From: Parvicella tangerina
Lineage (GTDB): Bacteria > Bacteroidota > Bacteroidia > Flavobacteriales_D > Parvicellaceae
Direction: 5' to 3'
Length of the DNA stretch: 64,000 bases
Assembly (NCBI RefSeq): GCF_907165195.1
Contig: NZ_OU015584.1
Coordinates: forward strand, 3,606,978-3,670,977
The notes under the pieces are model-generated. The model saw nothing but the letters and a program-made list of their open reading frames with translations, was not told where the DNA came from and searched no databases. This document shows positions 26,532-47,558 of this stretch, one piece after another. Within the stretch, counting starts at the first letter, position 1. Every line of letters begins with the position of its first letter. Position numbers and translations under genes: made by a program.

Positions 26532-26903
26532 CTAATCACTATTTGATAAAAATGATTTACCTCCTTCACTTTTTGGTTTGTATCGTTGTGTTGATCTAAC
26601 AAACTTCTTAGGATTCAAAGTCTCCATTGCCTTTTCAAAATCTTGTTTTATGAATGATCTGAAAAGTTCACCCCATTTATCGGGGTATTGCTCTTTTAAC
26701 TGATTAATCAGGGGCTTGTAAAATGAAACCAAAAATTGTGTCGCATTTACTAATCGTTTCTTGCCTTGCGCGAACACAATAACGCCATTCTTCTTGCACC
26801 ATTTTAGTACTGATCGAATATCATTATATCCAAGTTTTCGCATAATATGTTCAATACTAAAATCTTGCTGTCCATTTATTGATATGTCTAATGCTTCATT
26901 CAT
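26532..26903 (-). CDS. Small helix-turn-helix protein, possible excisionase
   Basis: A 123-residue basic protein. The segment FSIEHIMRKLGYNDIRSVLKWCKKNGV reads as a MerR/excisionase-type winged helix (about residues 16-45). The remainder is helical with a basic, flexible tail. Placed two bases before the integrase and overlapping the upstream gene by four bases (ATGA), it is a good candidate for a recombination directionality factor or integrase regulator. This is inferred from position and fold. Confidence 0.55.
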   Translation of the reverse strand: MNEALDISINGQQDFSIEHIMRKLGYNDIRSVLKWCKKNGVIVFAQGKKRLVNATQFLVSFYKPLINQLKEQYPDKWGELFRSFIKQDFEKAMETLNPKKFVRSTQRYKPKSEGGKSFLSNSD

Positions 26904-27550: not shown

Positions 27551-27736
27551 GAATTTATCTTAGATTTGAATGGGTAAGGTGGGCAGAGTGAATCAACTCA
27601 TTTGCTAGTCATTTCAGTGAGGCTGACCACTCTGTTTCCCCTTACTTGTTTTTGATCAACAAGTTTTCCCATTTTAATATTACTCGATCTTCTTACTTTC
27701 GGTTGAGCCAATTATTAAACGCTTGGCTCTTTTGAT

Positions 27737-28021
27737 TTATTGGCTGCTCTCAATGAGGTAGTCCAACTTCTTCTCAATACTCTCCAGTCGCTTCTCTATG
27801 TGATTGAATTTCTCTTGTAATACAAGTTGACCTCCTGAGAGTTCATCTAGTTCATCTTCATTCGACTCAACCCTTTCAGTAATGACTTCAATCTTCTCGT
27901 TAGTGTAACTCATCGATGAAGTCGTGTTGTAATAAAACGGGATCAACATAAATGTTGCCGTAATGATTACCCAAACTAGGTTTTCAGTTATCTTTTTCGA
28001 TATGTCTGATTTAGCTTTCAT
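27737..28021 (-). CDS. Small coiled-coil membrane protein
   Basis: A 94-residue protein starting MKAKSDISKK at the ATG 28021; an upstream in-frame extension overlaps the previous gene and is discarded. One membrane helix (about 14-32) is followed by a heptad-rich coiled coil (about 45-92: EKIEVITERVESNEDELDEL-type pattern). It lies at the end of the structural operon, and its topology suits a virion spike, anchor or spanin-like protein. No family is recognised. Confidence 0.6.
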   Translation of the reverse strand: MKAKSDISKKITENLVWVIITATFMLIPFYYNTTSSMSYTNEKIEVITERVESNEDELDELSGGQLVLQEKFNHIEKRLESIEKKLDYLIESSQ

Positions 28022-28028
28022 TCTTGTT

Positions 28029-28463
28029 TTATCCTTCTTGAGCCTGAGATAAAATGTCTGCAAGCAATTTGCATTCTTTCATCTGACCCTTTATATATAA
28101 TGCAATTGCTGTGGATGGTTGCAAAACCTCATTTTCTTGCTTTAAATGAATCAATAAAAACATCTGGGTCGTAGTTCCCAATTGGTACTGTGTTACCCCA
28201 TAATTAAAAATGTCTTTTACAATTTTACGAACCGTCATATTAATTAGTCCACTCATAGCTCCAACTCCTGAAGCTTTTGCCATTTCTTTAATATCAATTC
28301 TTCTTAGAAACGTGGCTTTATCAAAAACCGACAGCACCGGTTTTGCCTTCTGATTTTCTAAATCGATTCTTATCCCTACGCTTTCGGTAGGTAAACTCTC
28401 CTGCTCTGCAATGCCTCGCATTAGATCTGAACAGGCTTCTACAATCATTTTTTCTGCCTTCAT
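28029..28463 (-). CDS. Unknown protein, paralogue of the upstream gene
   Basis: A 144-residue protein with no membrane segment. Its pattern (VGIRID..., an FLLIHL strand, then IKGQMKECKLLADILS at the C-terminus) parallels the neighbour at 28475-28915 (VCIRIR..., VAVLFY, VNGKLKQCMYVSDLLAIL). The two therefore look like ancient duplicates. The ATG at 28463 is preferred to a TTG nine bases upstream. Function unknown; a virion component is possible from context. Confidence 0.6.
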   Translation of the reverse strand: MKAEKMIVEACSDLMRGIAEQESLPTESVGIRIDLENQKAKPVLSVFDKATFLRRIDIKEMAKASGVGAMSGLINMTVRKIVKDIFNYGVTQYQLGTTTQMFLLIHLKQENEVLQPSTAIALYIKGQMKECKLLADILSQAQEG

Positions 28464-28474
28464 AACGCTCAATT

Positions 28475-28915
28475 TTAGTTTAACAATTCATCACCTGTTC
28501 CTAGTATGGCTAGTAAATCTGAAACGTACATACACTGTTTTAACTTTCCGTTTACTGCCCCAACTACGACTGGTCGCTTTGATTTGGAAGATTCATAAAA
28601 GAGTACTGCTACATCCTCCTTTGATCCTACCTTGAACTTCTGCTTGGTCATTTGATAGAATGCTTTGATACAACCGTAAAATTCTTCTATTCCAAACCTC
28701 AAGGCGGTCAGCTTCTGACTACTCAGTTCTAAATAATCAAGTCGCACAATGGACTTGAAAGTAAATAGTCCCAATTCCATTGCCTTCTGCTCTCCGACAA
28801 ATCTGATCCTGATGCAAACATTTTTCTTGGGTTTACCTTTTCGCTTACCAATTTGCTCCAGCACCTCAGAAAATGCCGTATCAACTCTACTTAATATGTA
28901 GTTTGAATCTTCCAT
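28475..28915 (-). CDS. Unknown protein, paralogue of the downstream gene
   Basis: A 146-residue soluble protein, basic near residue 25-30 (GKRKGKPKK). Three conserved regions are shared with 28029-28463 (see that entry). The pair sits between the LEA-type protein and the coiled-coil membrane protein in one leftward operon. No known family recognised. Confidence 0.6.
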   Translation of the reverse strand: MEDSNYILSRVDTAFSEVLEQIGKRKGKPKKNVCIRIRFVGEQKAMELGLFTFKSIVRLDYLELSSQKLTALRFGIEEFYGCIKAFYQMTKQKFKVGSKEDVAVLFYESSKSKRPVVVGAVNGKLKQCMYVSDLLAILGTGDELLN

Positions 28916-28919
28916 CTTT

Positions 28920-29396
28920 TTATAATAAATCTCCTATCGTGAAATAGGATCGAATAGGTATTGGGAATACGGGTAGTACTCCAATTTTAGCAGACAACTT
29001 ACCTGAAACCGTAACTTGCAGATCATTCAGCAGCATCATATCTACACCATTAAAGGCAGGAATCTTCTCTTTTATGTCATCAAATTTGATTTGTAAGTCA
29101 ACTAGCAATGTAGAAGTTCCTCTTTTCATAACTCGAAAACTCTGCTCTGCACTTGCTTTAGATACAAGATGTCCCGCAATAAAAATTTCATAAAACTGCT
29201 TGCTGACCTTAACATTAAATTGGGTTGGATTCTCTACCGAAAACACTACTTTAAAGTTGATCGCTGTTGCGCTAATTGTATGGACTTGAATAGAGATCGG
29301 TTGATAGTCTATTTGATTGGAAAACCAAAGTCCAAATAGCCCTAGACTAAATCCTGTTCCTGCGACTGCTGTTCCTATTTTTACTCCCGTTTTCAT
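28920..29396 (-). CDS. LEA14/WHy-type membrane-anchored protein
   Basis: A 158-residue protein with an N-terminal hydrophobic segment (about 7-26) and a beta-sandwich matching the LEA type 2 (WHy) pattern: INFKVVFSVENPTQFNVKVSKQ-type strands, then FYEIFIAGHLVSKA and GTSTLLVDLQI. These domains have an immunoglobulin-like fold. In a virus-like element it may be a surface or membrane-associated virion protein. It overlaps the muramidase-like gene by four bases. Confidence 0.6.
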   Translation of the reverse strand: MKTGVKIGTAVAGTGFSLGLFGLWFSNQIDYQPISIQVHTISATAINFKVVFSVENPTQFNVKVSKQFYEIFIAGHLVSKASAEQSFRVMKRGTSTLLVDLQIKFDDIKEKIPAFNGVDMMLLNDLQVTVSGKLSAKIGVLPVFPIPIRSYFTIGDLL

Positions 29397-30022
29397 GAAG
29401 CCTTTCTTTTTAATTGATTCAGTTGGATGATCACTTCTTTCGGCAATCGATTTTGAAGCCTTAATTCAGGGTAAGTTCTCTCCGTCTTTCTAACTTGATC
29501 ATTCATCCTAATCTCCCCCAGTAATCTTAAAAAGCTTTTGCGTTTATTTTTGTTCGCCATTCTCATGTAGCACCATTTCATTCTCGCTCGAAGCACTTTG
29601 TAAAGCGCTACATCATTTAGGCTATTTAAAACATCTATTCCCCTAGGGGTAAATACTTCGTAGTGGTTTAGCTGTGATTTCAATTTACCCGCTACTCGCT
29701 CCAAATTCAGTCGCATTCCCGTTGTGCCTATGCTCATTAAGCCTAAGTAGATTAAAGCTGCCACATCTTTATGATCAATGTTGATCAGTCCCATACCTAA
29801 CCATAGTCTTTGATAAAGCAATCCGAATGCTTCATTTTGGGTCAGTTCTCTCATTTCCTCTGCGTTGGGAGTCCTCCCCAAATATTCAGCTAACATAGGT
29901 GCAGTTATACCCCATTTTGTTCCTACAAACTGTCCTGAAACAAATGATTCTTCGCTGCTTAAATTCAAGGCATAACCTCCCTGAAGTCCGATCTTTTTTG
30001 CTATTTGCTTAAACCTTTTCAT
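29393..30022 (-). CDS. GH108-type muramidase-like protein lacking the usual Glu
   Basis: A 209-residue protein. The segment GGYALNLSSE, then GTKWGITAPMLAEYLGRTP and MRELTQNEAF...YQRLW, follows the N-acetylmuramidase (GH108) pattern, normally EGGY near the start with the Glu as catalyst. Here the residue before GGY is Gln (LQGGY), so the enzyme may be inactive or use another acid. The C-terminal half is basic and does not match the standard peptidoglycan-binding module. In phages such proteins open the cell wall at entry or exit. Confidence 0.6.
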   Translation of the reverse strand: MKRFKQIAKKIGLQGGYALNLSSEESFVSGQFVGTKWGITAPMLAEYLGRTPNAEEMRELTQNEAFGLLYQRLWLGMGLINIDHKDVAALIYLGLMSIGTTGMRLNLERVAGKLKSQLNHYEVFTPRGIDVLNSLNDVALYKVLRARMKWCYMRMANKNKRKSFLRLLGEIRMNDQVRKTERTYPELRLQNRLPKEVIIQLNQLKRKAS

Positions 30023-30040
30023 ATGCTTTCCTTTTTTTGA

Positions 30041-30562
30041 TTAATAATCTTTGAATATCACGGCATCAGACCGCACCCATCCATAGCTATCACTTACTCC
30101 TAATCCTGCATCAATTTTTACTTTGAACCATGTATAGGCATACCCACTTTCATCCCCCTTTTTATAGTCAACTACTTTCCCTATTCGTTTTCCTGAAGCG
30201 GCTTTGGTAATCTTGTTACTCCAAAAATCCCAACCGCCATTATCTACTAGAGCAGAAGATCTTACCCATGCATAACCTAACCCTCCAAGTAAACTTGGTT
30301 TTGGGTAAAGTGTCTTCCCTATTAATTCCATTGATGGGTAATCGAGTTCTCCTTCTACATTGAACTGATAACCTCCATTTTCTGGTCTGCCATCTTCCGT
30401 TTCTCCATATACTCGTTGTGCTTCAAGCTTTTTTCTTCGCTCCTGCTCTTCCTTTTCCTTCTGTTTGGGTAAAAAGACAAACTGATAAATCAGCAATGCA
30501 GTAAGTCCCAAGCCTGCAAAAACGCCTGCTCCAATAATGATATGTTTCGTTGTTGTGTTCAT
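30041..30562 (-). CDS. Single-span membrane protein with SH3-like repeats
   Basis: A 173-residue protein: an N-terminal membrane helix (about 8-30), a charged stretch (KQKEKEEQERRKK), then two related segments each ending in a WVRS motif (AWVRSSAL and GWVRSDAV), typical of SH3b-like cell-wall binding strands. It may bind peptidoglycan or the cell surface, next to the muramidase-like gene. Family membership is inferred from these short motifs. Confidence 0.5.
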   Translation of the reverse strand: MNTTTKHIIIGAGVFAGLGLTALLIYQFVFLPKQKEKEEQERRKKLEAQRVYGETEDGRPENGGYQFNVEGELDYPSMELIGKTLYPKPSLLGGLGYAWVRSSALVDNGGWDFWSNKITKAASGKRIGKVVDYKKGDESGYAYTWFKVKIDAGLGVSDSYGWVRSDAVIFKDY

Positions 30563-30567
30563 TTTTT

Positions 30568-31053
30568 CTATGTTCTTGGCAGATTTGCGACCTTTCCCAT
30601 TAGCAGTTGCGTTTGTACTTTATCTCCTTTTAATGCATCCTGTAGGACGGTGTATAGATCGGTGTCATATTCTTGCTCGAAATAGTATGCGATCTTCGAT
30701 AAATCGTCATAGTGTCCCAAGCCGTCAAAGGCGTTTACTATAGCACTTTCATTATCGGATGAATACCAGCTTCCATAGTTATCCCAAACCTTCTTTGCGC
30801 GATCAATCGCTACTAGTCGAGAAATGGTTGCTCTTCCCGATGTTAAGTGTCTATTAGGGTCAAAGGCTGAACTAGCTTGTAAACTTTCAATTCCTCCAAC
30901 TGCGCCTGACTTATAGGGATCGCCATAAGCATCATCCAGTCGCTCTCTGACTTTTCTCTTGCGAACGCCTGGCACAATCAAAGCTGCTCCTAGTCCAATG
31001 ATTGCAACGCTACTGAAACCTATGACTAAATGTATTTTCGCTTCCCTAGTCAT
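30568..31053 (-). CDS. Membrane-anchored annexin-like repeat protein
   Basis: A 161-residue protein with an N-terminal membrane helix (about 6-27). The C-terminal 75 residues resemble one annexin-type repeat: AKKVWDNYG, then a helix ending IVNAFDGL, then IAYYFEQEYDTDLYTVLQDAL. The calcium-loop consensus is not complete. It follows the 31053-31505 gene with a one-base overlap. Membrane binding on the viral or host membrane would fit, but this is inference. Confidence 0.5.
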   Translation of the reverse strand: MTREAKIHLVIGFSSVAIIGLGAALIVPGVRKRKVRERLDDAYGDPYKSGAVGGIESLQASSAFDPNRHLTSGRATISRLVAIDRAKKVWDNYGSWYSSDNESAIVNAFDGLGHYDDLSKIAYYFEQEYDTDLYTVLQDALKGDKVQTQLLMGKVANLPRT

Positions 31054-31505
31054 TATCCTATCATTTTTTGAGGCATTCCTCCTTTCAACATTCCTCCAGT
31101 TCTAGCCGCAATGGCTAATTGAGCAGCATCATTCAACGTCTTTCCTTTTTTGATCTGAGCGATGATGTAATATGCTCCAATGCCCATCACCAAAATTGTA
31201 GTTCCGATGATAATTGCTCTTGTCCATTCCAGTCCCGATACAAACCAGTCTGTTACGTCATGAGTAACATCTGAAAGTTCTCCCGTCCAGTTGGTAGTTA
31301 GTTCCACTCCTTGAGAACTCATGTACTCTCTTAGTGAATGTGTGTCTGCAACTGACCCTGTTCCTGCTCGTTGATTCCAAAACTTTACGAAGTAAGCATT
31401 GGTTTCTGTCTTGCTAAACCATCTTTTCAATTGCTTGTGCCATGCAATCCATTCTTCTGAACTACTGGTTGAATTGGGGATATATCTACTTGGGTCGCTT
31501 TTCAT
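31053..31505 (-). CDS. Small membrane protein of the virion-like operon
   Basis: A 150-residue protein. The N-terminal soluble part (about 15-75) is helical with tryptophans in WIAWHKQLKRWF. A membrane helix spans about 93-116 (IIIGTTILVMGIGAYYII), and the tail is Gly- and Met-rich. No known family. It overlaps the annexin-like gene by one base and follows the metallopeptidase-like gene by 11 bases. Confidence 0.5.
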   Translation of the reverse strand: MKSDPSRYIPNSTSSSEEWIAWHKQLKRWFSKTETNAYFVKFWNQRAGTGSVADTHSLREYMSSQGVELTTNWTGELSDVTHDVTDWFVSGLEWTRAIIIGTTILVMGIGAYYIIAQIKKGKTLNDAAQLAIAARTGGMLKGGMPQKMIG

Positions 31506-31516
31506 CTCTTCTTCTT

Positions 31517-32299
31517 TTATCGCGTGCTACATCTTGTTTTTTCGTGCTGCTTAAATCGCTCTACAAACTGATTGACTGCTCTCCATCTCCTTTTGTTCAA
31601 GGCGGTTATCTTCCCTCCAAAAACAACCTTAAAACAGCGCAGGACTTCAACCGAATCAAACCCTAAATTCAGGGCTATATTTGTAGCGATTAGATCTGCA
31701 CTCAGTTCATTATTAGCCTTTCTGCCGTACTCTGAGTTTTTATAGCGGTGTGCATATTCATGTAGCAGTACCACCATTAGCATTGGGATAGAATAATTAA
31801 TGAGCTTACTTTTTGAAGCTTGTATTATTCCTGTTTGCTTTCCGATTCTAGCAGGGGTCGAAACCTCTTCCTCCTGCTCCATGATCTTATCCTGTAGCAA
31901 AATGGTAAACTCCTCACTTTGATAAATCGTTCCTTTCTCTCCTGCGTTTAGAGATTTAAGGTTCAATGCAAACCACTTGGCAAACTTGATAAATCGTTTA
32001 TCGCGTGCTGATAGTTCGACAGGACACTTGGTATCTCTTTTGATCTGAATCCCTTCGATTACATAATGTGCATCGCCAAGTGGCAAATCCTTACAGACTA
32101 TCTCAACCCTTAACCGATCTGATACAATAGGCAGCTTAAATCTTAATCGATTCAACCCTTTCAATGACACTTTGCGGTAGATAAACTGCGCTCCACTTAT
32201 CGGATTGAAAATGGATACAATCAATCTGACTGGTCTGAGTGCCTTGATGGTCAACAGCAGATTAAAAGGTTTTTGATATGGCAATAAATCAAATCGCAT
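31517..32299 (-). CDS. Metallopeptidase-like protein with HEYAH motif
   Basis: A 260-residue protein. The C-terminal half has a zinc-peptidase motif HEYAH (180-184) preceded by a hydrophobic helix, with NELSAD (from about 197) supplying a possible third ligand in the ExxxD style. The first 95 residues are beta-rich and unrelated to proteases I know. No signal peptide. In the element it may process virion proteins, such as a capsid maturation enzyme, or act on host proteins. It overlaps the upstream gene by one base. Confidence 0.5.
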   Translation of the reverse strand: MRFDLLPYQKPFNLLLTIKALRPVRLIVSIFNPISGAQFIYRKVSLKGLNRLRFKLPIVSDRLRVEIVCKDLPLGDAHYVIEGIQIKRDTKCPVELSARDKRFIKFAKWFALNLKSLNAGEKGTIYQSEEFTILLQDKIMEQEEEVSTPARIGKQTGIIQASKSKLINYSIPMLMVVLLHEYAHRYKNSEYGRKANNELSADLIATNIALNLGFDSVEVLRCFKVVFGGKITALNKRRWRAVNQFVERFKQHEKTRCSTR

Positions 32300-32727
32300 C
32301 AGCTTACTTTTTTAGTTATCCTACCGAGTAAAAAGCACCCAACTCCCAAACCTAGCATTAGAGCAGTTAACCACATCCAATTTTGCTTGAAAGCATCTGC
32401 AAATCCTACCTCGCATACATGAGGCTCTTCGGTCTCTACTTTTTTATCGGCTACTACCTCAAATTCTTCTAAAAACCCTTGATCATAAACCTTGTCTTCT
32501 TCACTTGTCTTGACAACGGCTACTTCTTTAGTTATTGGCTTTTCCTCGATGGGTTCAACCTTATCTAATTGCGTTGTTACTTCTACCTGCTCCACCTGCT
32601 TTTCATCAGGGCGAATTACTTTTATCTCTGGAGAATCTATGCGAGGATCGTCAACCAGTTGGTCTGAAATCTTCACTTGTGGCTCTCTTGTTTTGAAAAG
32701 GGTCGATAATTTATTTTCTGTTTTCAT
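32299..32727 (-). CDS. Acidic tail-anchored membrane protein
   Basis: A 142-residue protein with a long Glu/Lys/Val-rich, low-complexity stretch (about 20-105). One C-terminal membrane helix (about 117-137: LTALMLGLGVGCFLLG) is followed by a basic tip. The form recalls virion membrane proteins that bridge membrane and capsid. No family recognised. It overlaps the two-span protein upstream by 17 bases. Confidence 0.5.
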   Translation of the reverse strand: MKTENKLSTLFKTREPQVKISDQLVDDPRIDSPEIKVIRPDEKQVEQVEVTTQLDKVEPIEEKPITKEVAVVKTSEEDKVYDQGFLEEFEVVADKKVETEEPHVCEVGFADAFKQNWMWLTALMLGLGVGCFLLGRITKKVS

Positions 32728-32920
32728 ACTTTCTCTTTTTTAATTGATAGCCTATTGCGCCAAACAAACAGGCGAAAAAAAACGTGATGGACACTCCTTT
32801 AAATCCGAATACAATGGTCACTGTAGTTCCCACTAATGAGCCTACCCCAAACCATTTAGCATAAGCCTTAGCACAGTTCTGGTATTGCTCTTTTTCTGAT
32901 ATGTCCTGTTTTCGATTCAT
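32711..32920 (-). CDS. Small two-span membrane protein
   Basis: A 69-residue protein with two adjacent hydrophobic segments (about 22-40 and 43-60) and a basic C-terminus (KKRKYENRK). It shares its first base with the stop codon of the upstream gene and overlaps the next by 17 bases, showing tight coupling. It could be a virion membrane protein or holin-like; there is no proof of either. Confidence 0.5.
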   Translation of the reverse strand: MNRKQDISEKEQYQNCAKAYAKWFGVGSLVGTTVTIVFGFKGVSITFFFACLFGAIGYQLKKRKYENRK

Positions 32921-33501
32921 TAGTTTAACTCCTTAACCGATGGCGTACCGCCAAATTTTGCAATCTCAGACTGTTTGTTTTTGTTGGCATAAATGATGGC
33001 TATTGTAATTCCTATCAGAATCAGCACACCAACTGTTATCCCAATAGCAAGATTGGTTCTTCGTCTTCGCTCTTCTTCCTCTCGTTGTCTTTGCCGTTCT
33101 GCTTCCATCTGTATTCGAGTGGCTTCATCCATTGTTCCTCCTGTGCTCAAACTTTGGTTTCTGCCAATCCCTGAAAGGATACCACCAATTGCCTGCATGG
33201 CTGCTCCTGCGATAGTCATTCCTTGACCATTTGCATTGAGGTATTCGCTGGAATCCTCCATCAACATTCCCGTTACTGCTGCTCTTAATTCTGAGCTTAA
33301 AGCGAGGTGTTTAATGAGGGATGAATACAGTACAGCTTTTGGAGCGACAATGCTTGCCTTTATCTTTAGGCTTGTTAGTAAATCAACAATTTCTTCTGAC
33401 CTGCTTTGAACCAATTCTCTGAGCTTTGCCCTAACGATTAGGTGGTTCGTCTTGACCTTGCCTTCTTTCTCGTTTCTTATGATGATTTCTGATAGTTTCA
33501 T
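32920..33501 (-). CDS. Membrane protein with C-terminal single span
   Basis: A 193-residue protein. The first 100 residues are helical and basic. A Gly-rich middle (ANGQGMTIAGAAMQAIGG) is followed by a very charged stretch (RQRQREEEERRRR), then a membrane helix (about 150-170: IGITVGVLILIGITIAII). It overlaps the coiled-coil gene upstream by four bases. No known family. It fits the run of virion-membrane-like proteins. Confidence 0.5.
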   Translation of the reverse strand: MKLSEIIIRNEKEGKVKTNHLIVRAKLRELVQSRSEEIVDLLTSLKIKASIVAPKAVLYSSLIKHLALSSELRAAVTGMLMEDSSEYLNANGQGMTIAGAAMQAIGGILSGIGRNQSLSTGGTMDEATRIQMEAERQRQREEEERRRRTNLAIGITVGVLILIGITIAIIYANKNKQSEIAKFGGTPSVKELN

Positions 33502-34181
33502 GATGCTGCCACTTTTAATTGATTGGCTCTGAATTTCTTAATCGCCACTATGATTCCAATGATTAACAATAGACCGACTCCTGCGATAATGAACCACTGG
33601 GTTTGACTTGCTTTCTTGTCGGCTTCTTCCTTTTCTTGTTGCTGCTGTTCAGCTTGTTTTTGCTGCGCCTGTTGTTGTTGCTTTTGAAATTCTAACTCTT
33701 GCTGCTGCTTAGCGACTTCAATTTCTCCTAGTTGTTTGGCAGCTTCAGGGTCAAGCCCTTTTTCAATTCCTTTTCCTTCTGCCTCAACTAATGCTTTGAT
33801 CTGGTTTTTAAGATCGCTTATTCTTGATGGCAATCGCTTTTGTTCTGCTTTGGCTGAATCTATTTTGCCTTCATATACATCAATCTTCTTTTCCAAGTCG
33901 TAAATCACCTGTCCTACATCTTTTCCCCCATTTTCTTTTGACCACTTCTTCTTTTTTCGATTGCTCAGTCCTGCTAAATAGTTAATGTCTGACTGCATTC
34001 TTGAAATAGCATCTTGATAGTTCTTTAGCACAGCAGGCAACTCAACCAATCTGTTCTCCAGCTTTTCAAGGCTCTTTCTAAGATCATCCAGCGTGCTTGC
34101 GCCATTGGCTGAATAATACGCTTCAGTAATCGGACTTACTCGACCAAAATTCCATCCTGATATTTTTGTATCTACATTCAT
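33498..34181 (-). CDS. Coiled-coil protein with C-terminal membrane anchor
   Basis: A 227-residue protein. About residues 25-190 form a long helical coiled coil, Gln-rich toward the end (EFQKQQQQAQQKQAEQQQQ). One membrane helix follows (about 197-218: FIIAGVGLLLIIGIIVAI) with a basic tip. The form suggests a spacer or scaffold between membrane and shell. It is the first gene after the terminator-bounded capsid unit. Confidence 0.55.
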   Translation of the reverse strand: MNVDTKISGWNFGRVSPITEAYYSANGASTLDDLRKSLEKLENRLVELPAVLKNYQDAISRMQSDINYLAGLSNRKKKKWSKENGGKDVGQVIYDLEKKIDVYEGKIDSAKAEQKRLPSRISDLKNQIKALVEAEGKGIEKGLDPEAAKQLGEIEVAKQQQELEFQKQQQQAQQKQAEQQQQEKEEADKKASQTQWFIIAGVGLLLIIGIIVAIKKFRANQLKVAAS

Positions 34182-34283
34182 TTTTTGCTGTTCTTTTACC
34201 CTAGTTTTTAGACAGTTCTTTTCCTGCTCTCCTTTTTCAAGAGAGTTGGGTATGATTTAAAATGTAAGGTTGGTTGTAAGAAA

Positions 34284-34309
34284 AGGGAGGTTAATTCACC
34301 CCTCCCTTA
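34284..34309 (-). terminator. Terminator overlapping a small gene's stop codon
   Basis: AAGGGAGG and CCTCCCTT form an eight-base-pair stem with a ten-base loop that contains the stop codon of the small gene at 34291-34464. On the minus strand it is followed by a T-rich tract. Confidence 0.8.
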
Positions 34310-34464
34310 ATCTTGTTTATCATTGCTTCCATGTTGTCAAGCTCTCTAAAAAGAAGCGTCTTGACCTCTTGGATTCGCTCTATATCAAACTGCTTGATGG
34401 CTTCAGCAAGCTTGGCTTGATACAGTTGTATATCGATGGCAATGTCTATAATAATTACTGCCAA
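34291..34464 (-). CDS. Small helical protein downstream of the candidate capsid gene
   Basis: A 57-residue frame that is too short for most gene lists. It reads as a single amphipathic helix (IAIDIQLYQAKLAEAIKQF, then EVKTLLFRELDNMEAM, ending IKGGVN). The only plausible start is TTG at 34464, as no ATG is in frame upstream. A terminator covers its stop codon. It lies between the capsid-like unit and the membrane-protein block. Function unknown; a minor capsid or scaffold peptide would fit. Confidence 0.5.
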   Translation of the reverse strand: MAVIIIDIAIDIQLYQAKLAEAIKQFDIERIQEVKTLLFRELDNMEAMINKIKGGVN

Positions 34465-34474
34465 AAAACATTAA

Positions 34475-34499
34475 GTAAAGCCCCCAAATCGGGGGCTAC
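34475..34499 (-). terminator. Terminator after the candidate capsid gene
   Basis: AGCCCCC and GGGGGCT pair around a short AAATC-type loop, and on the minus strand a T-rich tract follows. It sets the 34518-35442 gene pair off from the next genes, allowing separate dosage. Confidence 0.7.
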
Positions 34500-34517
34500 T
34501 CTTAGTTTTTTTCTCAG

Positions 34518-35225
34518 TTATCCTGAGATTTTCTTTGGGCGAATTGAAATCGCTCCTGTGTTCACTTTGGCATTAGCAAATGCCTTGATCGGATCTCTAC
34601 CTTTTAACGTGTCTCCCGTATTCACCTCATACATCGGGAAGATCGAATAGATGATTCTTGTCTTTGGTTCTACTTCCACTTCAAAGAAAGTGCTACCGTC
34701 AACGTCTATTTCTTCTTCTCTGTCAATATCAATGATATTCTTCAGGTTCTGATACGGTGAACGATAAATGTGCAAATTGATCAGTCTTTGAGACAAGTTC
34801 CCTCGTCCGTTCTTCTCATTGATCACAATAGGCTTGCTCAATTGCAAATCGCTATCTGATTCTACTCTGATGTGCTGAATCTTAAATGGTAAAGTAGATG
34901 ATCGTTGCAATAACTCCACATACTCTACACCTGATTGTCCTGTAGTGATCTCGATTCCTCTATCTGATCCAAAGTTGTCTTTAAGCAAAAACTTATCGTT
35001 GCCATAAAGGACTGCTTTAAGTGCTTTGTCAGTTGGATTGAATACGATGATCTGATAAGGGTTGGCTCTAAAGAGTTTCTTTTGAGGTAATTTCATCTCT
35101 GAATGGTTTTCATATTCTTCATAAACCTCATACTCCTCTCCATCCAAATGATGAAATTGCTCTTTACCTTCAAGCTCACCTAAGATTCTTTCAAATTCCG
35201 ATTTGTTTCTTTTTACCTTTTTCAT
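34518..35225 (-). CDS. Candidate major capsid protein (beta-rich, jelly-roll type)
   Basis: A 235-residue soluble protein, almost entirely predicted beta after a charged 45-residue start. It has two similar-sized halves: one with PYQIIVFNPTDKAL, then YVELLQRSSTLPFKI and HIRVESDS; the other with NIIDIDREEEIDVDG, then FFEVEVEPKTRIIYSIFP. This rhythm (N-rich strand, LxxSxxxPFKI, IRxxS, then a VDG turn) recalls double-jelly-roll capsid proteins of tailless phages, though 235 residues is short. A terminator directly downstream and a small membrane protein upstream suggest a separate, strongly expressed unit. Assignment is inference. Confidence 0.5.
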   Translation of the reverse strand: MKKVKRNKSEFERILGELEGKEQFHHLDGEEYEVYEEYENHSEMKLPQKKLFRANPYQIIVFNPTDKALKAVLYGNDKFLLKDNFGSDRGIEITTGQSGVEYVELLQRSSTLPFKIQHIRVESDSDLQLSKPIVINEKNGRGNLSQRLINLHIYRSPYQNLKNIIDIDREEEIDVDGSTFFEVEVEPKTRIIYSIFPMYEVNTGDTLKGRDPIKAFANAKVNTGAISIRPKKISG

Positions 35226-35226
35226 T

Positions 35227-35442
35227 TTACTGAATTGTTTGGGTTACTTCCTGTGCATTCTCTTTGGCAACCGTTGTAGTTGTCGAAGGAGCTGGAAGTT
35301 TTTCTTTTGCCTTCGGAGTATCGGTGCTTGTCGTGTTTCTTGATTCCCAGAACTTAATTGCCGAATAGGCTAAGATGCTAGCGAGAAACGTAACGATCAA
35401 ATTCGATACTGCCGGATGTTTTAAGATTTCTCCAATTTTCAT
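35227..35442 (-). CDS. Small N-terminally anchored membrane protein
   Basis: A 71-residue protein with one membrane helix (about 14-32: LIVTFLASILAYSAIKF) and a Thr/Pro/Lys-rich tail (STDTPKAKEKLPAPSTTTT). It is one base from the candidate capsid gene and heads the leftward operon. It may be a virion membrane protein. Confidence 0.55.
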   Translation of the reverse strand: MKIGEILKHPAVSNLIVTFLASILAYSAIKFWESRNTTSTDTPKAKEKLPAPSTTTTVAKENAQEVTQTIQ

Positions 35443-35643: not shown

Positions 35644-36267
35644 CTATTTGATATAAACGCAATCACTTCTATTCCAAGTCAATGATTCCGCAAACTCGGA
35701 TTTACTTTCCAATCCATTTAAATTATGAATAGGGTCTAAGTCTTTGCTTTCTTTCTTTTCAATAATTAAATAGAATTCTGACATCGAGGTCTCAAAATGA
35801 TTTACACTTGGAGACATTTCCAAGCCCTCAATAAATTCAACGATAAAGTCATAGTTATTAAGTACGTCTTCTACTGAGTTAAATTTAACGTTTAACACTT
35901 CTCCAAGTTCATATGTTCCAAAATCTAGACTTGATCCAATTCCTCCATTGCAATAGAAAGTTGTGAAGGAATATCCCTCAATTTCATTGATAGGAACTGA
36001 TATAGGATAGTAAAACGCATCTTTACTTAATCCCAACAAAACGATTTCTCCTTTGCCCTCAACCTTTAAACGTACTGAAATCTCTTCAAGGGTCATATCT
36101 TCATGCCCCCAAATATTTATTACTTCTATATTTTCAAGGCTATTCAATTCATCTCTAATTTGGTTCAATTCTCCGTAATAACCGTAATGGTGATTTACAC
36201 ACAACGTCAATAAAGGAAGCCCCAGCAATATCAGCCCCCACTTAAATATCTTTGGCATAAATTTCAT
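35644..36267 (-). CDS. Unknown single-span membrane protein (cargo)
   Basis: A 207-residue protein with one N-terminal hydrophobic segment (about 8-24) and a mixed alpha/beta soluble part outside the membrane. There are no motifs I recognise. It begins the AT-rich cargo block of small exported proteins, whose style differs from the virion-like operon to its left. It may be an immunity protein, but no evidence fixes that. Confidence 0.5.
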   Translation of the reverse strand: MKFMPKIFKWGLILLGLPLLTLCVNHHYGYYGELNQIRDELNSLENIEVINIWGHEDMTLEEISVRLKVEGKGEIVLLGLSKDAFYYPISVPINEIEGYSFTTFYCNGGIGSSLDFGTYELGEVLNVKFNSVEDVLNNYDFIVEFIEGLEMSPSVNHFETSMSEFYLIIEKKESKDLDPIHNLNGLESKSEFAESLTWNRSDCVYIK

Positions 36268-36343
36268 TTATCAATATTTGAAAGCCAGTTTTTGGTTATA
36301 CTAACCAAAATATTTGATCTTTTATTGCATACGTTTGTTAACA

Positions 36344-36790
36344 CTAATTATTCTTTCTATAGTAAATTGGAGGCTTCTCCGAAACAAATCTGCGGTATTC
36401 ATTGCTTATATGAAACTCTCCATTAGGATTCAACCAAAAGTCTAAAACAACTTCATCCCCATTTTTCTGCTCAGCAGGTAAATCAACCCTATAAATACAG
36501 CTATTCCAAAGTTTAAAGTTTATCGAATCTTTCTGAAATGATGATAATTCAGATAATTCCTCCTTGAGACAAAAGAACAAGCCTTCCTCTGGAGAAATGG
36601 AGTATCTAATTTCTTTAATCTCCCAAGACTCTATGCTAATATCGTCACTATAGGCACGCATCCAAATATCAATTTGCAGCGAATAGAAGTCTTTATTTTT
36701 TTTCAGAATCTTTTTGTAATCATTGTAGGATTGAGAAGTTACTTTAAACGAACACATACAAAATATTGCTAAACACACCAAAAATCTCAT
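36344..36790 (-). CDS. Small secreted protein (cargo)
   Basis: A 148-residue protein with a signal peptide (about 1-19, ending TSQ). The mature start SYNDYKKILKKNKDFYSL is repeated in a broken copy at 37066-37156, so the gene has been partly duplicated. The remainder is unrecognised, with a strand such as EVVLDFWLNPNGEF. Function unknown. Confidence 0.55.
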   Translation of the reverse strand: MRFLVCLAIFCMCSFKVTSQSYNDYKKILKKNKDFYSLQIDIWMRAYSDDISIESWEIKEIRYSISPEEGLFFCLKEELSELSSFQKDSINFKLWNSCIYRVDLPAEQKNGDEVVLDFWLNPNGEFHISNEYRRFVSEKPPIYYRKNN

Positions 36791-36819
36791 AATTACAAAA
36801 ATCTAGGGCTCTTTCTATT

Positions 36820-37062
36820 CTAAAAAAGTTGTCTAAATGCATAAAATGCCACAAACAATATGTTATAAATTAAAAGAATATTGTACCGTGACTTCGAAAG
36901 AAAAAATAGAAAAATCAAGTCCATAATAACAAAAGGGGTTACAAATAAAGTTAGAATATATCCTTTTGAAATTGCATTAACATCATCAATCCAATAAAGT
37001 AACAACATTAAAAATACTCCTATGAAAACTGTAATTATGTGTATTTTTTTTTCCTCTAACAT
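36820..37062 (-). CDS. Small three-span membrane protein (cargo)
   Basis: An 80-residue, very hydrophobic protein with three membrane segments (about 8-26, 33-54, 60-76). Its ATG lies four bases beyond the end of the duplicated fragment at 37066, so it probably came with a recombination event. No family recognised. It could be an immunity-type inner-membrane protein. Confidence 0.4.
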   Translation of the reverse strand: MLEEKKIHIITVFIGVFLMLLLYWIDDVNAISKGYILTLFVTPFVIMDLIFLFFLSKSRYNILLIYNILFVAFYAFRQLF

Positions 37063-37156
37063 TTTTCAGCGAATAGAAGTCTTTATTATTTTTTAGAATC
37101 TTTTTGTAGTCATAGTAGGTTTGAGAATAACTTAAAAGCGACAGGAGAAAAAGCAT
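36986..37156 (-). pseudogene. Truncated copy of the 36344-36790 gene
   Basis: The frame starting MLFLLSLLSYSQ (37156) continues YYDYKKILKNNKDFYSL, nearly identical to the N-terminus of 36344-36790. About 60 bases match closely at DNA level (36676-36733 against 37066-37127). Beyond 37066 the similarity stops abruptly and the frame runs into the next gene. This is a 5' gene fragment left by duplication. Confidence 0.6.
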
Positions 37157-37202
37157 ATCATCGTGATCGCTTTTCCCATATATTATGAAGTTTAAATTAT
37201 AT

Positions 37203-37538
37203 TTAGTCTCTTTTAATGTTCTTACACGGGGAACAATAGGAATCAATACTGTCTGTCATGTGATGTCTAATCTCAATTAAGGAGTCATTATAAAATGTAA
37301 TTAACCAATTAACTTCATTATTTAGCCATATTCCTTCTTGGGTTAACTTTGTATTCCTGTTAACACCTCTCGAAAATTCAATTTCTTCAAAATCGTTGAA
37401 ATATAAAACATGAAATAAGCCTTCGCCCAAGTTCTGAATTCTATAAATAGTTGTGTCCTTGTATTCAATTGAAATATCTTGTTGTCCAATAGCTCCAATA
37501 ACAATAGCACAAAGTAGATATGTGATTATTATTTTCAT
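37203..37538 (-). CDS. Small secreted protein (cargo)
   Basis: A 111-residue protein with a signal peptide (about 1-18, ending GAIGQ). The mature part is beta-rich (IYRIQNLGEGLFHVLYF) and ends with a CSPC cysteine pair. No family recognised. It is of the same size and style as the neighbouring exported proteins. Confidence 0.5.
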   Translation of the reverse strand: MKIIITYLLCAIVIGAIGQQDISIEYKDTTIYRIQNLGEGLFHVLYFNDFEEIEFSRGVNRNTKLTQEGIWLNNEVNWLITFYNDSLIEIRHHMTDSIDSYCSPCKNIKRD

Positions 37539-37669
37539 AGTACACTAACTCGATGAAGTGATTTTTATTCTACAATTTTCAACCCAAATCCAATAAACTA
37601 ATTATAAAAATCTTGGTTTTTTACTTTTTTGACAGGCTTTTACTTTAACTTAAAGAGATCCTAAAAACT

Positions 37670-38209
37670 CTATTTAATGTATTCAATCTTTGTGATTAGT
37701 CTAAGTATTCCATCATAGAACCTTTTACACTCAACAATACGTCCTTCTATGTCATAATAATATTCAAGTCTTAATTGTTCAACATCTTTTGAATCCACAT
37801 AGGTAACTGATCTAACTCTCATCAAATTATCATATTTCAATGATATATTATCCCATTCAGTTAACCTCTTATCTGTATTAGGTATGGTTATTAAGTCATG
37901 AGTATCTTCAATTAATAAGGATACCCCACACTGATCTATCTCAAACTTCATCGTTTGACAAGAGCTTTTTCCACACAAATAATGACGTTCGAATAAATTG
38001 CCATTTTCATCGAAAAGGAGCTCCTCTGATAAAGAAATATTAGTTTCAACTCCTTCTTTAATTTTTTGGTCATAAAACCTTACTAAGGTATAATTACGCG
38101 TGGAATCGCCAATTAGAAAATCGGAATAATCATATTCTAAATCAATACCGAACTGCCCAAAAAAGGAAGTACAGATAAAAAGACACAATATTTGTATAAT
38201 GACTTTCAT
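37670..38209 (-). CDS. Secreted protein downstream of the mini-Rhs gene
   Basis: A 179-residue protein starting MKVIIQILCLF with a signal peptide (to about residue 20). A longer in-frame start overlapping the mini-Rhs gene is rejected. The C-terminal half shows repeated strands (RSVTYVDSKD, LEYYYDIEGRIVEC) like short YD/RHS- or MORN-type repeats. Its position seven bases after the mini-Rhs gene makes it a candidate immunity or partner protein; this is inference. Confidence 0.5.
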   Translation of the reverse strand: MKVIIQILCLFICTSFFGQFGIDLEYDYSDFLIGDSTRNYTLVRFYDQKIKEGVETNISLSEELLFDENGNLFERHYLCGKSSCQTMKFEIDQCGVSLLIEDTHDLITIPNTDKRLTEWDNISLKYDNLMRVRSVTYVDSKDVEQLRLEYYYDIEGRIVECKRFYDGILRLITKIEYIK

Positions 38210-38216
38210 ATCTTTA

Positions 38217-39437
38217 TTACTTAAAAGGAGGTAAAATATTGCCTCCACTACCTGAAGAACCTTGAGACTTTTTTGGTGGTGCTGATAATTCAGATGGCGT
38301 ACCAGTCATTGCACCACTTGGAATTTTTGCTCCTCTGGTTACAAGATTAAAGTTCACAGGTTGGCTATTGAGAACAGATTGCGTTAAATTATATATCTGT
38401 GCATGTAAGAGAGTCGATTGATTAGCTCCGTCCCATGAATCGCTCCCCCCTCTTTCTTGTGGAACACCACCGTATCCACCTGCCTTCATATCATCATTTT
38501 CCATTATAAACAATGATAACATATATCCATTTATGTCTGATGATAACGAGTATGGAACAGTCCCAGTATTTAGTAGTTTAGAAGGCTCATATGTAGATCT
38601 GGGGGTTGCATTTTCTTCCATTTCATTGTGAAAATCCATATTCATAAATAATACAAAATCTTCATCTCCAGAAGGCTTTACAAACCCACTACCATTTATA
38701 TTATCATCGTACATTCCTCCTAATTTATCTAATTGGTCCATATCATCTTCTGATAAGCCTAAACCTTCAAAACCTGGCTCATCAGCGATATAAGAATCAT
38801 CATGATACGCCATAAAAGTATATTCTTCAGAAGCATTTATCATTTCATAGTAACCATAAGCAAGAGCTTTAAGTTTAGGGTCATCAACTTGTTCAATTAC
38901 TTTTTGAAATTCTTCTTCGTCTATCTTCTCAAAACTCAATGTACCAGCAGTTTGGGTAAACAAATCCTGTAACGCTTGATTGCTACTAAACGTTTTCATT
39001 ACTGTGTTATATATATATGCCCAAGATTCATCATTTCCAGCGGAAACAATATTACCATCGGGGTCTAAAAATCTAATTGGGGAATTTATTGCAAAATTGT
39101 AAGGCGATTCACTTGGAAGTAATTTATAATATGGATCGGGGGACAACCACCTACTAACTATTTCAGGTTCTAAAGTAGCCTCAGAATACATTGTATCTAT
39201 TTCAATGAATCCAATTACCTGCATTGTATTCGTGTTTAAAACCGCTGAACCTATTATTTCAATACTATCCAAATCAAAAAACTCATCGAATTTTCCATTA
39301 CTTAGGGTAAGAACTTCGTCTTTTTCTCCAAACCTTTCGTAAGGATTATAAGTATTGTCTTGACCAACTAAACTTATTGGAATGCCCAATAATAAAGCGA
39401 AAACGCAATAACAACTAATTCTTCGTATCATATTCAT
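38217..39437 (-). CDS. Mini-Rhs core protein with variable C-terminus
   Basis: A 406-residue secreted protein: a signal peptide (about 1-25), a conserved lead (EVLTLSNGKFDEFFD, then DTMYSEATLEPEIVSRWLS) and the Rhs-associated core signature SPDPYYKLLPSESPYNF...INSPIRFLDPDG (about 93-130). No long YD-repeat shell is present. After DPDG, about 275 residues of unfamiliar sequence form the variable part, which in Rhs proteins is often a toxin. It overlaps the transglutaminase-like gene upstream by four bases (ATGA), the last-but-one member of a five-gene operon. Confidence 0.65.
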   Translation of the reverse strand: MNMIRRISCYCVFALLLGIPISLVGQDNTYNPYERFGEKDEVLTLSNGKFDEFFDLDSIEIIGSAVLNTNTMQVIGFIEIDTMYSEATLEPEIVSRWLSPDPYYKLLPSESPYNFAINSPIRFLDPDGNIVSAGNDESWAYIYNTVMKTFSSNQALQDLFTQTAGTLSFEKIDEEEFQKVIEQVDDPKLKALAYGYYEMINASEEYTFMAYHDDSYIADEPGFEGLGLSEDDMDQLDKLGGMYDDNINGSGFVKPSGDEDFVLFMNMDFHNEMEENATPRSTYEPSKLLNTGTVPYSLSSDINGYMLSLFIMENDDMKAGGYGGVPQERGGSDSWDGANQSTLLHAQIYNLTQSVLNSQPVNFNLVTRGAKIPSGAMTGTPSELSAPPKKSQGSSGSGGNILPPFK

Positions 39438-40486
39438 TTTGATTGAGTTTGTAATTTAACAATTTTTTCGTTGCTATACATAGCCTTATTTTCTTTTAAA
39501 TCTAATAACCAATTTAAATACATTTTTTCAGGCATTTTCCTGTAACCTAATTTGTAAATTTTGATGACTAAATTTTCATATTCCTGAAAAAGTTCACCAG
39601 ACATGTTATTGTCTAACTTTCTCTTTATTACCTCAGCTTTAAACAGCAGAGCATTGATGTAATTCGGGTAATACTCTAATGCTTTGTCTAAACACAATTC
39701 AATAAATTCATCGTCAATATGACCGTATTTCTTCTCATACCCTTTTGCCAAGTCAACCAAACAAAGTGAAATGGTTTGCGTATCGTTCAATGTGTCCATA
39801 TAGATCCCTGATCTAATAGCGTCAAGATGTATATAACCAGATGCCATTAACCAAGCATCAAGAGGAAAGGCTGCGCTTGTTAATTCCGTATTATACATCC
39901 CTCCCTGAACTGATCGGTGTTTGATGTAAATATGATTTGGGGCTAAGGCAAGACTGGCGGAAATCCCTGATTCTTCTGCTAAAATCTTATACAACAACGG
40001 TAAAGAATGGCAATTACCATTTTTTTCTTTTAACAGTTTGGAAACAAACATTTTCGTCCAATCCTTATCACCTGTAAAATCTTTAAAATCATAGGTAAAA
40101 GGCAAATGATAAACTTCAAGGCTATCATTAATTTGAATGGGTATAGTATCTGTAAAGACACTAAATAATGAGGCTCGAAACAGCATCGTATTTCTATCCG
40201 AATGATTGTATGCGAAATTATCTGCATTGGCATAGGCATATTCATTTACAAGATAAGCTAGCTCTTTAACATCTCTATAAAATTCAATTAAATCCAAATT
40301 ACCTAAAAAGGCGTTTTCAACCATATAAACTGCATTTTTCAAACTATATTCATACTCATTCATTAACATTCCTGTTAAACCATAATAGGCTTTTTCATAA
40401 CCTATGTCTTTGGTTTTTGTAGATGCGACTTCCTGCGCCTGAATAGAATAGTATATGCTAACTAATATTATGATGATGTACCTCAT
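39434..40486 (-). CDS. Secreted transglutaminase-like protein (second copy)
   Basis: A 350-residue protein with a signal peptide (ends IQAQ). The middle has a transglutaminase/cysteine-protease-like pattern: C159 in NGNCHSLPLLY, H185 in PNHIYIK, then YNTELTSAAFPLD with a possible third residue. Helical TPR-like repeats follow (YYPNYINALLFKAE). It is clearly related to the C-terminal 330 residues of the upstream gene. Both are coupled by four-base overlaps to the mini-Rhs gene, so they may modify or process it; that is inference. Confidence 0.6.
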   Translation of the reverse strand: MRYIIIILVSIYYSIQAQEVASTKTKDIGYEKAYYGLTGMLMNEYEYSLKNAVYMVENAFLGNLDLIEFYRDVKELAYLVNEYAYANADNFAYNHSDRNTMLFRASLFSVFTDTIPIQINDSLEVYHLPFTYDFKDFTGDKDWTKMFVSKLLKEKNGNCHSLPLLYKILAEESGISASLALAPNHIYIKHRSVQGGMYNTELTSAAFPLDAWLMASGYIHLDAIRSGIYMDTLNDTQTISLCLVDLAKGYEKKYGHIDDEFIELCLDKALEYYPNYINALLFKAEVIKRKLDNNMSGELFQEYENLVIKIYKLGYRKMPEKMYLNWLLDLKENKAMYSNEKIVKLQTQSK

Positions 40487-42279
40487 TTATTTGTGACTAT
40501 TTTTGAAAAGTTGATATAAAACTTGTTATGCTCCTGTTCCTGTTGTTTTTCTTCTATGGTTTTTAGCCAACTTGAATAAATTTCTTCAGGCATCGGTTCA
40601 TATCCAAGCCCATCGGTTAAAGCATACAATTTATTTCGCTGAATAAATATTTCTTTCGTTTTAGGATCAGATAAAATTTGATCTTCTGTTGAATAGCCTT
40701 TTTGCCTTATTACATATTCAAGTAAAACAGAATAATAGTTTGACTTTTCGAGAATAGCATTGATATTATTAGGGTGGTATTTTAAAGTTTGGTTAATACA
40801 TTTTAGATTGAAATCCTCATATCCTTGCTGAATATCGGGTTTTCCAAATCTCCATTTATAATATTGAGCTAAGTCCGTCAGACAATTGGCAACAACTTGT
40901 TCTTTATTCATTGTATCTAAGTAAATTCCCCCTTTAATAGCCTCTGCCTTAATATATCCCGATCCTACAATCCACGAATCTGAAGATAGCCTGCCATTTG
41001 TTAACTCAACATTATAAAAGTTCCCTTTATTGTCTTTTACTTTGATAAAACTGTGTGATGGAGACAACGAAAGATATGCACTCCCGCCAAGTTCCTCAAC
41101 AAGAATTAGATAATAAAGTGGTAATGATTTGCATTGCCCACTATTCTCAAACATCAATTTCGAGACAAACATTTGACGCACATCGTAATACCCAAACGGG
41201 TCATCGAAATCATACTGTTTAGGAAAAGTTGTTACAACTTTTTCTAGCCCCATCATATCAATCCGTAAAGTATCGCTTATATACTTATGCGTCATATAAT
41301 TAATCGCATGATTATCCCTTGACGAAAGTCCCTCTTGGGACATTTTTATTTCAATCATCTTTTCGGACTCATCCAATGCAGCGCAGAAGTCTTTGTAATT
41401 CATTTGCCCAGAAAACCAAGCGTTTTCGGTTAGAAAAACTGCCCTTTTAATACTTAAAGGTTTCTTACCTTCTAACATCTCTACAATTTCATTGTAAGCT
41501 TTTTCAAAGTGTAATTTCTCCGATTCAGAACTCAAACGCGGCATGGTATAATTGACCTTTTCATCCGTAGCATTCGATTCTACAATTAATGATTTCACAA
41601 AAGCTACTGTTTGGATCTGCTTGGGAGGGATAAACGACTTAGCATTTAAAGTCGAATTATTCTTGTTTAGCCTCTCAAAAACTTGATTAGGAGTTTGTGA
41701 ATTTACATTTTGACTACTTTCAGGCGAACTAGGTTGTAAAGTTGAATTAAAAGAATTTGAGTTAGATCCAGAATTAAAATGTTGAAATGACTGATCAGTT
41801 GAAACAGGCGTATAGGTATTAAATTGAGGTGATTTGGGCTCAGTAATTTGTCCCAAGCATGTACATGTATTACTAATCGAAATAAAAATGACCAAGATAG
41901 CAAGGCTTTTTATCTTAAGAATTAAGGATTTTCCATTATCTCTAATTTGACTCTTCGCCTTTAGATAATATTCAACCTCATAAATACTTATCTCAGCCAT
42001 CATAAAGGCTCTAACAACGAAAAGTGTTTGAATTGTTTTGAAAGGATTTCGAATCAAAACAATGTTACAAATAGTACCTATCATTAGTGTAACGAATAAT
42101 GTCAAATCACACCAAATAGCAGAAAGACTTCCTTCACGAAGTATTTGACTATAAAAGATAGGATGTCTATTTGACATATTAGGAGTGGGTATTATGGGAG
42201 TCAAGACCAATTTAACAAAATAATCCCTTATGAATCTATTATTACCCCTTAAATCTTTATGAAATAATTCTAAACCCAT
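40483..42279 (-). CDS. Membrane-anchored transglutaminase-like protein (first copy)
   Basis: A 598-residue protein. About 1-140 contain two hydrophobic segments (LTLFVTLMIGTICNIVL and LAILVIFISI), followed by a Ser/Asn/Pro-rich linker. From about 250 the sequence parallels the next gene: FVSKLMFENSGQCKSLPLYY (catalytic-type Cys), PSHSFIK (His) and FYNVELTNGR, then TPR-like helices. The first 115 residues look like an added membrane module not present in the paralogue. It overlaps the next gene by four bases. Confidence 0.55.
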   Translation of the reverse strand: MGLELFHKDLRGNNRFIRDYFVKLVLTPIIPTPNMSNRHPIFYSQILREGSLSAIWCDLTLFVTLMIGTICNIVLIRNPFKTIQTLFVVRAFMMAEISIYEVEYYLKAKSQIRDNGKSLILKIKSLAILVIFISISNTCTCLGQITEPKSPQFNTYTPVSTDQSFQHFNSGSNSNSFNSTLQPSSPESSQNVNSQTPNQVFERLNKNNSTLNAKSFIPPKQIQTVAFVKSLIVESNATDEKVNYTMPRLSSESEKLHFEKAYNEIVEMLEGKKPLSIKRAVFLTENAWFSGQMNYKDFCAALDESEKMIEIKMSQEGLSSRDNHAINYMTHKYISDTLRIDMMGLEKVVTTFPKQYDFDDPFGYYDVRQMFVSKLMFENSGQCKSLPLYYLILVEELGGSAYLSLSPSHSFIKVKDNKGNFYNVELTNGRLSSDSWIVGSGYIKAEAIKGGIYLDTMNKEQVVANCLTDLAQYYKWRFGKPDIQQGYEDFNLKCINQTLKYHPNNINAILEKSNYYSVLLEYVIRQKGYSTEDQILSDPKTKEIFIQRNKLYALTDGLGYEPMPEEIYSSWLKTIEEKQQEQEHNKFYINFSKIVTNK

Positions 42280-42285
42280 ACCAAC

Positions 42286-45716: not shown

Positions 45717-45742
45717 AAAGCAAACACTAAAAACGTAGCAAT

Positions 45743-46602: not shown

Positions 46603-46607
46603 AGACA

Positions 46608-47546: not shown

Positions 47547-47558
47547 AACAAAGCATGA

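Follow-up and report, generated by a model that had tools for sequence, protein, structure and literature searches.

Closest described tailless phages

The shell proteins of P23-77-type phages are single jelly rolls. P23-77 itself, a Thermus phage (Matshushitaviridae, Helvetiavirae), has a genome of 17 kb, a virion-associated lysozyme and two adjacent annotated major capsid proteins, VP16 and VP17. PRD1 and PM2 (Tectiviridae, Corticoviridae; Bamfordvirae) have a double-jelly-roll capsid protein and many small structural proteins, and the annotations of PRD1, PM2 and P23-77 all showed the order packaging ATPase, small protein(s), capsid protein. Among prokaryotic viruses with a double jelly roll, the known genomes measure about 7-18 kb (PMC5894146). 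The Flavobacterium phage FLiP (Finnlakeviridae) has a ssDNA genome of 9.2 kb and a double-jelly-roll capsid protein and is without a packaging ATPase (PMC5894146).

The window analysed here is a stretch of 64,000 nucleotides of Parvicella tangerina (NZ_OU015584.1, positions 3,606,978 to 3,670,977), and it contained a provirus with a small beta-rich protein of 235 residues. We put a probability of roughly 0.75 on the reading that this protein is the major capsid protein and that the provirus represents a tailless phage lineage not described before, one that operates in the manner of the PRD1 and P23-77 viruses.

The capsid candidate and its predicted fold

The candidate gene was located at 34518-35225 on the minus strand, and its assignment draws on an AlphaFold2 (AF2) model, fold matches, family membership and synteny. 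Directly upstream lay a gene for a 71-aa protein with one predicted membrane helix at residues 11-29 (35227-35442, minus strand), so that the pair proposed in the initial annotation, a 235-residue protein preceded by a small membrane protein, was present as claimed. A small ORF occupied the position of the 71-aa gene in related proviruses, and miniproteins with a transmembrane (TM) helix were found there in virus contigs. The 235-aa gene is real and not a chance ORF, because a second copy, 79% identical, was found elsewhere in the Parvicella tangerina genome and relatives at 40-50% were found in other genera. The motifs (PF, IR..S and VDG) that had been picked out from the sequence contained positions that the family conserves, F114, S123 and D176-G177.

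Searches of Pfam and PHROGs with the 235-aa protein gave no match, and a sequence search against solved structures gave nothing credible. Sequence-profile comparison of the family with the capsid proteins of FLiP, PM2, PRD1 and P23-77 showed no link; the hhalign value for P23-77 VP16 and VP17 was 0.1%, the targets being single sequences.

The AF2 model built from 40 sequences showed residues 56-200 as a single beta-sandwich with a pLDDT of about 90 (mean 72, pTM 0.60), and residues 1-52 and 203-235 were modelled as disordered. This run superseded a poor one with only 5 sequences (pLDDT 48). The core was beta apart from short helices, which bears out the earlier description of the protein as nearly all beta. 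Matches obtained with VIA over residues 52-202 included P3 of PR772/PRD1, in its second jelly roll (Z 6.3-6.5), the coat of CPMV (Z 5.7), the nanovirus FBNSV (5.5), STMV (5.4) and SPV1 (5.3). With the coats of CPMV, STMV and SPV1 the likeness was one of overall fold, but CPMV and STMV have RNA genomes, SPV1 belongs to another, archaeal virus family, and no sequence relation was seen. Even these best viral matches were weak (Z 5.3-6.5), no VIA match reached a Z of 8, and jelly rolls of non-viral proteins (AlgX, CBMs, PHM, nucleoplasmin) scored about equally. Foldseek gave no match in the PDB at E 1e-3 and low-TM matches only among viral models. The check by model and structure search that the initial annotation had proposed thus returned a jelly-roll-type model with capsid matches, but the matches were weak and non-viral folds scored alike. 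The model supports one jelly roll, with the strand order judged from the structure matches and not from the model coordinates; the fold alone is no proof of capsid function.

The same annotation had seen two similar-sized halves and had considered a double jelly roll with rolls of about 100 residues each. A length of 235 residues with about ten strands would suit two very small domains, and the top viral match among solved structures is itself a double-jelly-roll protein. However, what was modelled with confidence is a single domain, residues 56-200, between disordered ends, with one roll filling the protein, and the matches to P3 covered one roll only (P3 residues 256-389). The two halves were therefore not recovered, the double jelly roll is contradicted by the model, and we consider it highly improbable.

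Genomic features of the provirus

The candidate gene lay in an integrated element of 33.2 kb flanked by 53-bp att repeats at tRNA-Met. The proximal repeat (23856-23908, plus strand) was the 3' part of the tRNA gene (23834-23908, ARAGORN), and the distal one, a direct repeat (57078-57130, plus strand), was 96% identical to it over 53 nt. On the minus strand, the element encoded a tyrosine recombinase (integrase; 25225-26529; Phage_integrase, 4.6e-12) and a protein of 123 aa that weakly matched a helix-turn-helix family (26532-26903; HTH_56, E 0.001, below the curated cut-off). Further genes formed two arms, a minus-strand structural arm at 26900-35442 and a plus-strand ATPase arm at 44205-49647.

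The structural arm contained 16 genes, ten of which encoded a TM helix. Reading along the coordinates, all on the minus strand, it began with a DUF2272/CHAP-like peptidoglycan hydrolase with an N-terminal TM helix at residues 6-24 (26900-27550; DUF2272, 5.4e-21), which was kept in the elements of Fluviicola and of a metagenome-assembled genome (MAG). A small membrane/coiled-coil protein (27737-28063; TM 25-43) was conserved in related proviruses. Two conserved structural-arm proteins followed, at 28029-28472, with relatives in proviruses and virus contigs (1e-4 to 5e-6), and at 28475-28915, which matched the same virus ORFs. Next came a LEA_2-like beta protein (28920-29396; LEA_2, 2.2e-7; virus relatives to 9e-14) and a candidate GH108-like lysozyme (29393-30022; Glyco_hydro_108, 5e-4, just under the cut-off; endolysin phrog_315, 1.1e-3). 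Two conserved membrane-anchored proteins were encoded at 30041-30562 (TM 8-26, with a soluble C-terminal part) and 30568-31053 (TM 9-27), and a further membrane protein at 31053-31505 (TM 97-115) had virus relatives to 2e-7. A putative metallopeptidase with a HEYAH motif (31517-32299) had virus relatives at 1e-24 to 1e-35, its Pfam match not being significant. The remaining genes, all conserved, encoded a membrane protein with a C-terminal TM helix (32299-32727), a small membrane protein (32711-32920), a helical protein with a C-terminal TM helix at residues 152-170 (32920-33501) and, as the next gene after the capsid candidate, a coiled-coil protein with a C-terminal TM helix at residues 196-214 (33498-34181).

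The ATPase arm, all on the plus strand, started with a DUF6908 protein (44205-45716; 9.3e-23) that was kept in the relatives L017 and L019 described below. It continued with a small protein with a C-terminal TM helix (45743-46087), a protein with a DnaA C-terminal-type helix-turn-helix, possibly involved in replication or regulation (46084-46602; Bac_DnaA_C, 1.4e-8), and, immediately before the ATPase, a conserved protein that also occurred in virus contigs (46608-47546; 1e-9 to 1e-18). The packaging-type FtsK/HerA ATPase (47559-48428; HerA DUF87, 1.6e-4) was followed by a patatin-like phospholipase (48463-49647) with weak PADLOC phospholipase-effector matches and relatives in L017, L018 and L019.

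Relatives in cellular genomes

The structural arm occurred a second time on the same chromosome (G000:C1, about 2082100-2090900; L003/L004), with 75-81% DNA identity and beside other recombinases. No ATPase homologue accompanied this copy, a point against the capsid reading, and since the genome has one ATPase gene only, the copy seems motorless. Between the two arms of the provirus, the region at 35644-43158 of the window was rich in A+T and consisted of genes for host-like and for secreted proteins; several of these had paralogues beside the second arm copy (L003, 2415-6236), which suggests shared cargo.

Two genomes shared the two-arm design, that of Fluviicola chungangensis (L017) and one whose database entry is named Glaciecola amylolytica (L019), and a Bacteroidia MAG (L018) carried the structural arm. 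The L019 record (CP034120.1) bears a gammaproteobacterial name; it belongs to the same order as Parvicella tangerina, and because it groups in this Bacteroidota order, the name or the sequence of the record looks wrong. In Crocinitomix algicola (L016) the element is a decaying provirus, with an internal stop in its capsid gene (10001-10693) and most of the arm missing. The capsid family was detected in 10 of the 399 genomes sampled, all of this order, and a profile search of a phylum-wide sample returned the Parvicella tangerina genome only.

Virus contigs, gene order and the packaging ATPase

When IMG/VR was scanned with the capsid protein, as a single sequence or as the close family, nothing was found. 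With the ATPase alignment as query, relatives were found on IMG/VR contigs, and the profile of the 235-aa family matched the ATPase-adjacent protein on these contigs at 1e-15 to 1e-49. Queries built from the virus-contig relatives then yielded 57 capsid loci and 75 ATPase loci on contigs of up to 102 kb. In 54 of 55 capsid loci, a homologous ATPase gene preceded the capsid gene on the same strand, each of the 52 ATPase loci with sufficient sequence had the capsid gene downstream, and a single-TM miniprotein was present in 25 of 30 short gaps between the two; the loci overlap in part, so these counts are not fully independent. The ATPase adjoined the capsid gene in the virus contigs, whereas in the provirus it sat in the opposite arm. 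Besides the capsid protein, the ATPase, its upstream partner and the metallopeptidase-like protein were strongly shared across the lineage, and the LEA_2 protein and its neighbours were also common to some virus contigs.

Both Walker motifs were present in the ATPase family alignment, A as GRKGVGKT and B as LLLIEDI. In hhalign, the family matched the P23-77 packaging ATPase at 87% (E 3.7e-6, 155 columns), three P-loop controls reached at most 4%, and the similarity to P9 of PRD1 and P9 of PM2 was weak.

A 101.8-kb contig of virus-like genes of the same type (G098:C1:1-101828; L168-L173) was found in a Flavobacteriales assembly, the single assembly from which a host for the large forms is assigned. 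It contained two capsid-family genes, for proteins of 242 and 320 aa. A second, shorter gene of ATPase-like type (4889-5572) lay on the contig too, along with genes resembling those for DNA methyltransferases and one resembling that for an acyl carrier protein.

The element might instead be non-viral, a conjugative or secretion-like mobile element whose 235-aa protein is a surface or ligand-binding beta-sandwich. The equal scores of non-viral beta-sandwiches would fit this, as would an ATPase superfamily that also powers conjugation. However, the same core occurred on long IMG/VR contigs and on the 101.8-kb contig, no recognisable conjugation apparatus was found among the scanned arm proteins of the provirus, and the order ATPase, miniprotein, jelly-roll gene agrees with tailless phages. 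We therefore regard a non-viral element as very unlikely.

Markers of tailed phages were also searched for. The HK97 capsid (PF05065) and the large terminase (PF03237) were found in 0 of 18 virus contigs, and the portal (PF04860) in 0 of 24; these contigs are linear and possibly incomplete, and gene absences there are no proof. A separate search for DNA polymerase A (PF00476) also gave 0 of 24. HK97 capsid, large terminase and portal were also not found among the scanned provirus proteins. A tailed lineage, in which the 235-aa protein would be a head decoration or fibre protein, could draw on one 20-kb contig (L022) with an HK97-type, tailed-phage capsid gene (PF13252; 336-1316, minus strand). 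That gene lay at the contig edge, was absent from the 23 other contigs and possibly reflects a chimera or a neighbouring phage. Apart from it, the hallmarks of Caudoviricetes were lacking in the provirus proteins and contigs scanned, and a tailed lineage is extremely improbable.

The terminator hairpin

A GC-rich, terminator-like hairpin was located directly 3' of the capsid gene (34479-34497, minus strand). The folded stretch of 66 nt gave -25.6 kcal/mol (z -4.7), none of 200 shuffles was equally stable, and this 3' region was the most stable among the 16 same-strand genes of the module. The strong hairpin expected after the gene was thus present. The further claim that the unit is set apart by terminators held at the 3' end but not at the 5' end, since a scan of the minus strand 5' of the miniprotein-capsid unit found no terminator-like site.

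A terminator was scored where a hairpin of at most -14 kcal/mol, with a T-rich stretch after it, lay no more than 130 nt from the stop codon. Among the non-redundant virus loci, 33 of 33 capsid genes had one, compared with 24 of 718 other ORFs. At a threshold of -10, the enrichment at capsid genes over other ORFs gave a Fisher value of about 1e-30. This energy-based test replaced a strict contiguous-stem test, which under-called. When each of six proviral copies was compared with its own arm, the capsid gene had the strongest 3' hairpin in every one, and a hairpin followed the homologous gene in all relatives examined. The hairpin sequences differed among the proviral copies, and therefore the structure and not the sequence has been kept; the T-tract criterion was satisfied in only 5 of 9 provirus-type copies. 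In one subgroup of virus contigs (L052, L062, L066, L078 and others), a conserved AATTAnTGTATAAT-like motif was observed between the capsid stop and the hairpin, 20-60 nt after the stop.

Gene order and terminator also bear on whether the 235-aa protein is a jelly-roll virion protein of a minor kind (minor capsid protein, penton or base of a spike) in a virus whose shell is made by another gene. PRD1 P5, a vertex protein, was among the Foldseek matches, penton or spike jelly-roll proteins could have the same synteny, and the two family members in some genomes (G098, L051, L072 and L114) indicate that the fold serves a second role too. Yet in nearly all loci the neighbour of the ATPase was a member of the 235-aa family that had a terminator to itself, and no other shell-protein candidate was common to the lineage. 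A minor role is accordingly judged unlikely.

Proposed model and comparison with known viruses

The capsid role is well supported, because the jelly-roll-type model, the linkage to the ATPase (and often the miniprotein), the conserved private terminator and the provirus setting all point to it. The word major, meaning the most abundant shell protein, was part of the original proposal and would follow from the gene order and the conserved unit. We infer the shell geometry, an internal membrane, packaging of double-stranded DNA and high expression, the membrane because the structural arm is rich in TM proteins. Under this model, each subunit would consist of a jelly roll of about 145 residues with a disordered tail at either end, the N-terminal one acidic. 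An icosahedral shell would be built from many such subunits and would enclose a lipid membrane in which several of the single-pass membrane proteins of the element are embedded. The FtsK/HerA-type ATPase would pump the DNA into the preformed shell, and the lysozyme- and DUF2272-type enzymes may breach the cell wall when the virus enters or leaves. The miniprotein and capsid genes would form a short unit closed by the hairpin terminator, so that capsid mRNA could exceed the mRNA for the downstream membrane proteins. Integration at tRNA-Met would proceed via the tyrosine recombinase of the element.

Compared with P23-77, the likenesses were the predicted single-roll capsid protein, a detectably similar packaging ATPase, the order ATPase, small ORFs, capsid gene, and a lysozyme, here a candidate. 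The differences were one capsid candidate seen instead of two adjacent major capsid proteins, and size, with 17 kb in P23-77 against 33 kb for the provirus and up to 102 kb for the contigs; each element in this genome had one member of the capsid family, paralogues occurred in some relatives, and an unrelated second jelly-roll protein may exist. Of the features of Helvetiavirae, a single jelly roll (as modelled) and a homologous packaging ATPase (as judged by sequence comparison) would be present, and the lineage may belong there. With PRD1 and PM2 the element shares a predicted jelly roll nearest the second roll of P3, the gene order and the many small structural proteins. For Bamfordvirae, an FtsK/HerA packaging ATPase beside the capsid gene was true of the virus contigs, but the double-roll capsid appears to be lacking, with one modelled domain, and on this feature the lineage falls outside the group. 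FLiP resembles the lineage in its Flavobacteriales host and in a membrane-containing virion with a lytic enzyme, the membrane being inferred here; an ATPase, a single roll and no match to the FLiP capsid protein place the element outside Finnlakeviridae.

The Charybdis element (preprint, PMC12324425) was considered as a prior description and concerns something else. The literature search, of partial coverage, found no description of this lineage, and a prior one is possible. A tblastn search of GenBank phages with the provirus-type and virus-type capsid proteins and ATPases gave no match, and the lineage is not among the GenBank phage records or PHROGs searched.

Through the capsid-ATPase core, a provirus of Flavobacteriales is connected with virus contigs as long as 102 kb, and the tailless phages compared here have 9-17 kb. 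Capsid protein, ATPase and terminator are signatures for finding such viruses, Fluviicola and Parvicella tangerina are lysogen candidates for isolation, and the family offers a way to test whether single-jelly-roll shells can package about 100 kb. Tentatively, and at somewhat under even odds, these viruses form a deep new tailless lineage with one small single-jelly-roll capsid protein, ranging from proviruses of about 20-33 kb to free forms of at least 100 kb. If so, they would be a new high-rank branch with genomes far larger than those of the compared tailless membrane-containing phages, and they would test the upper size for such shells.
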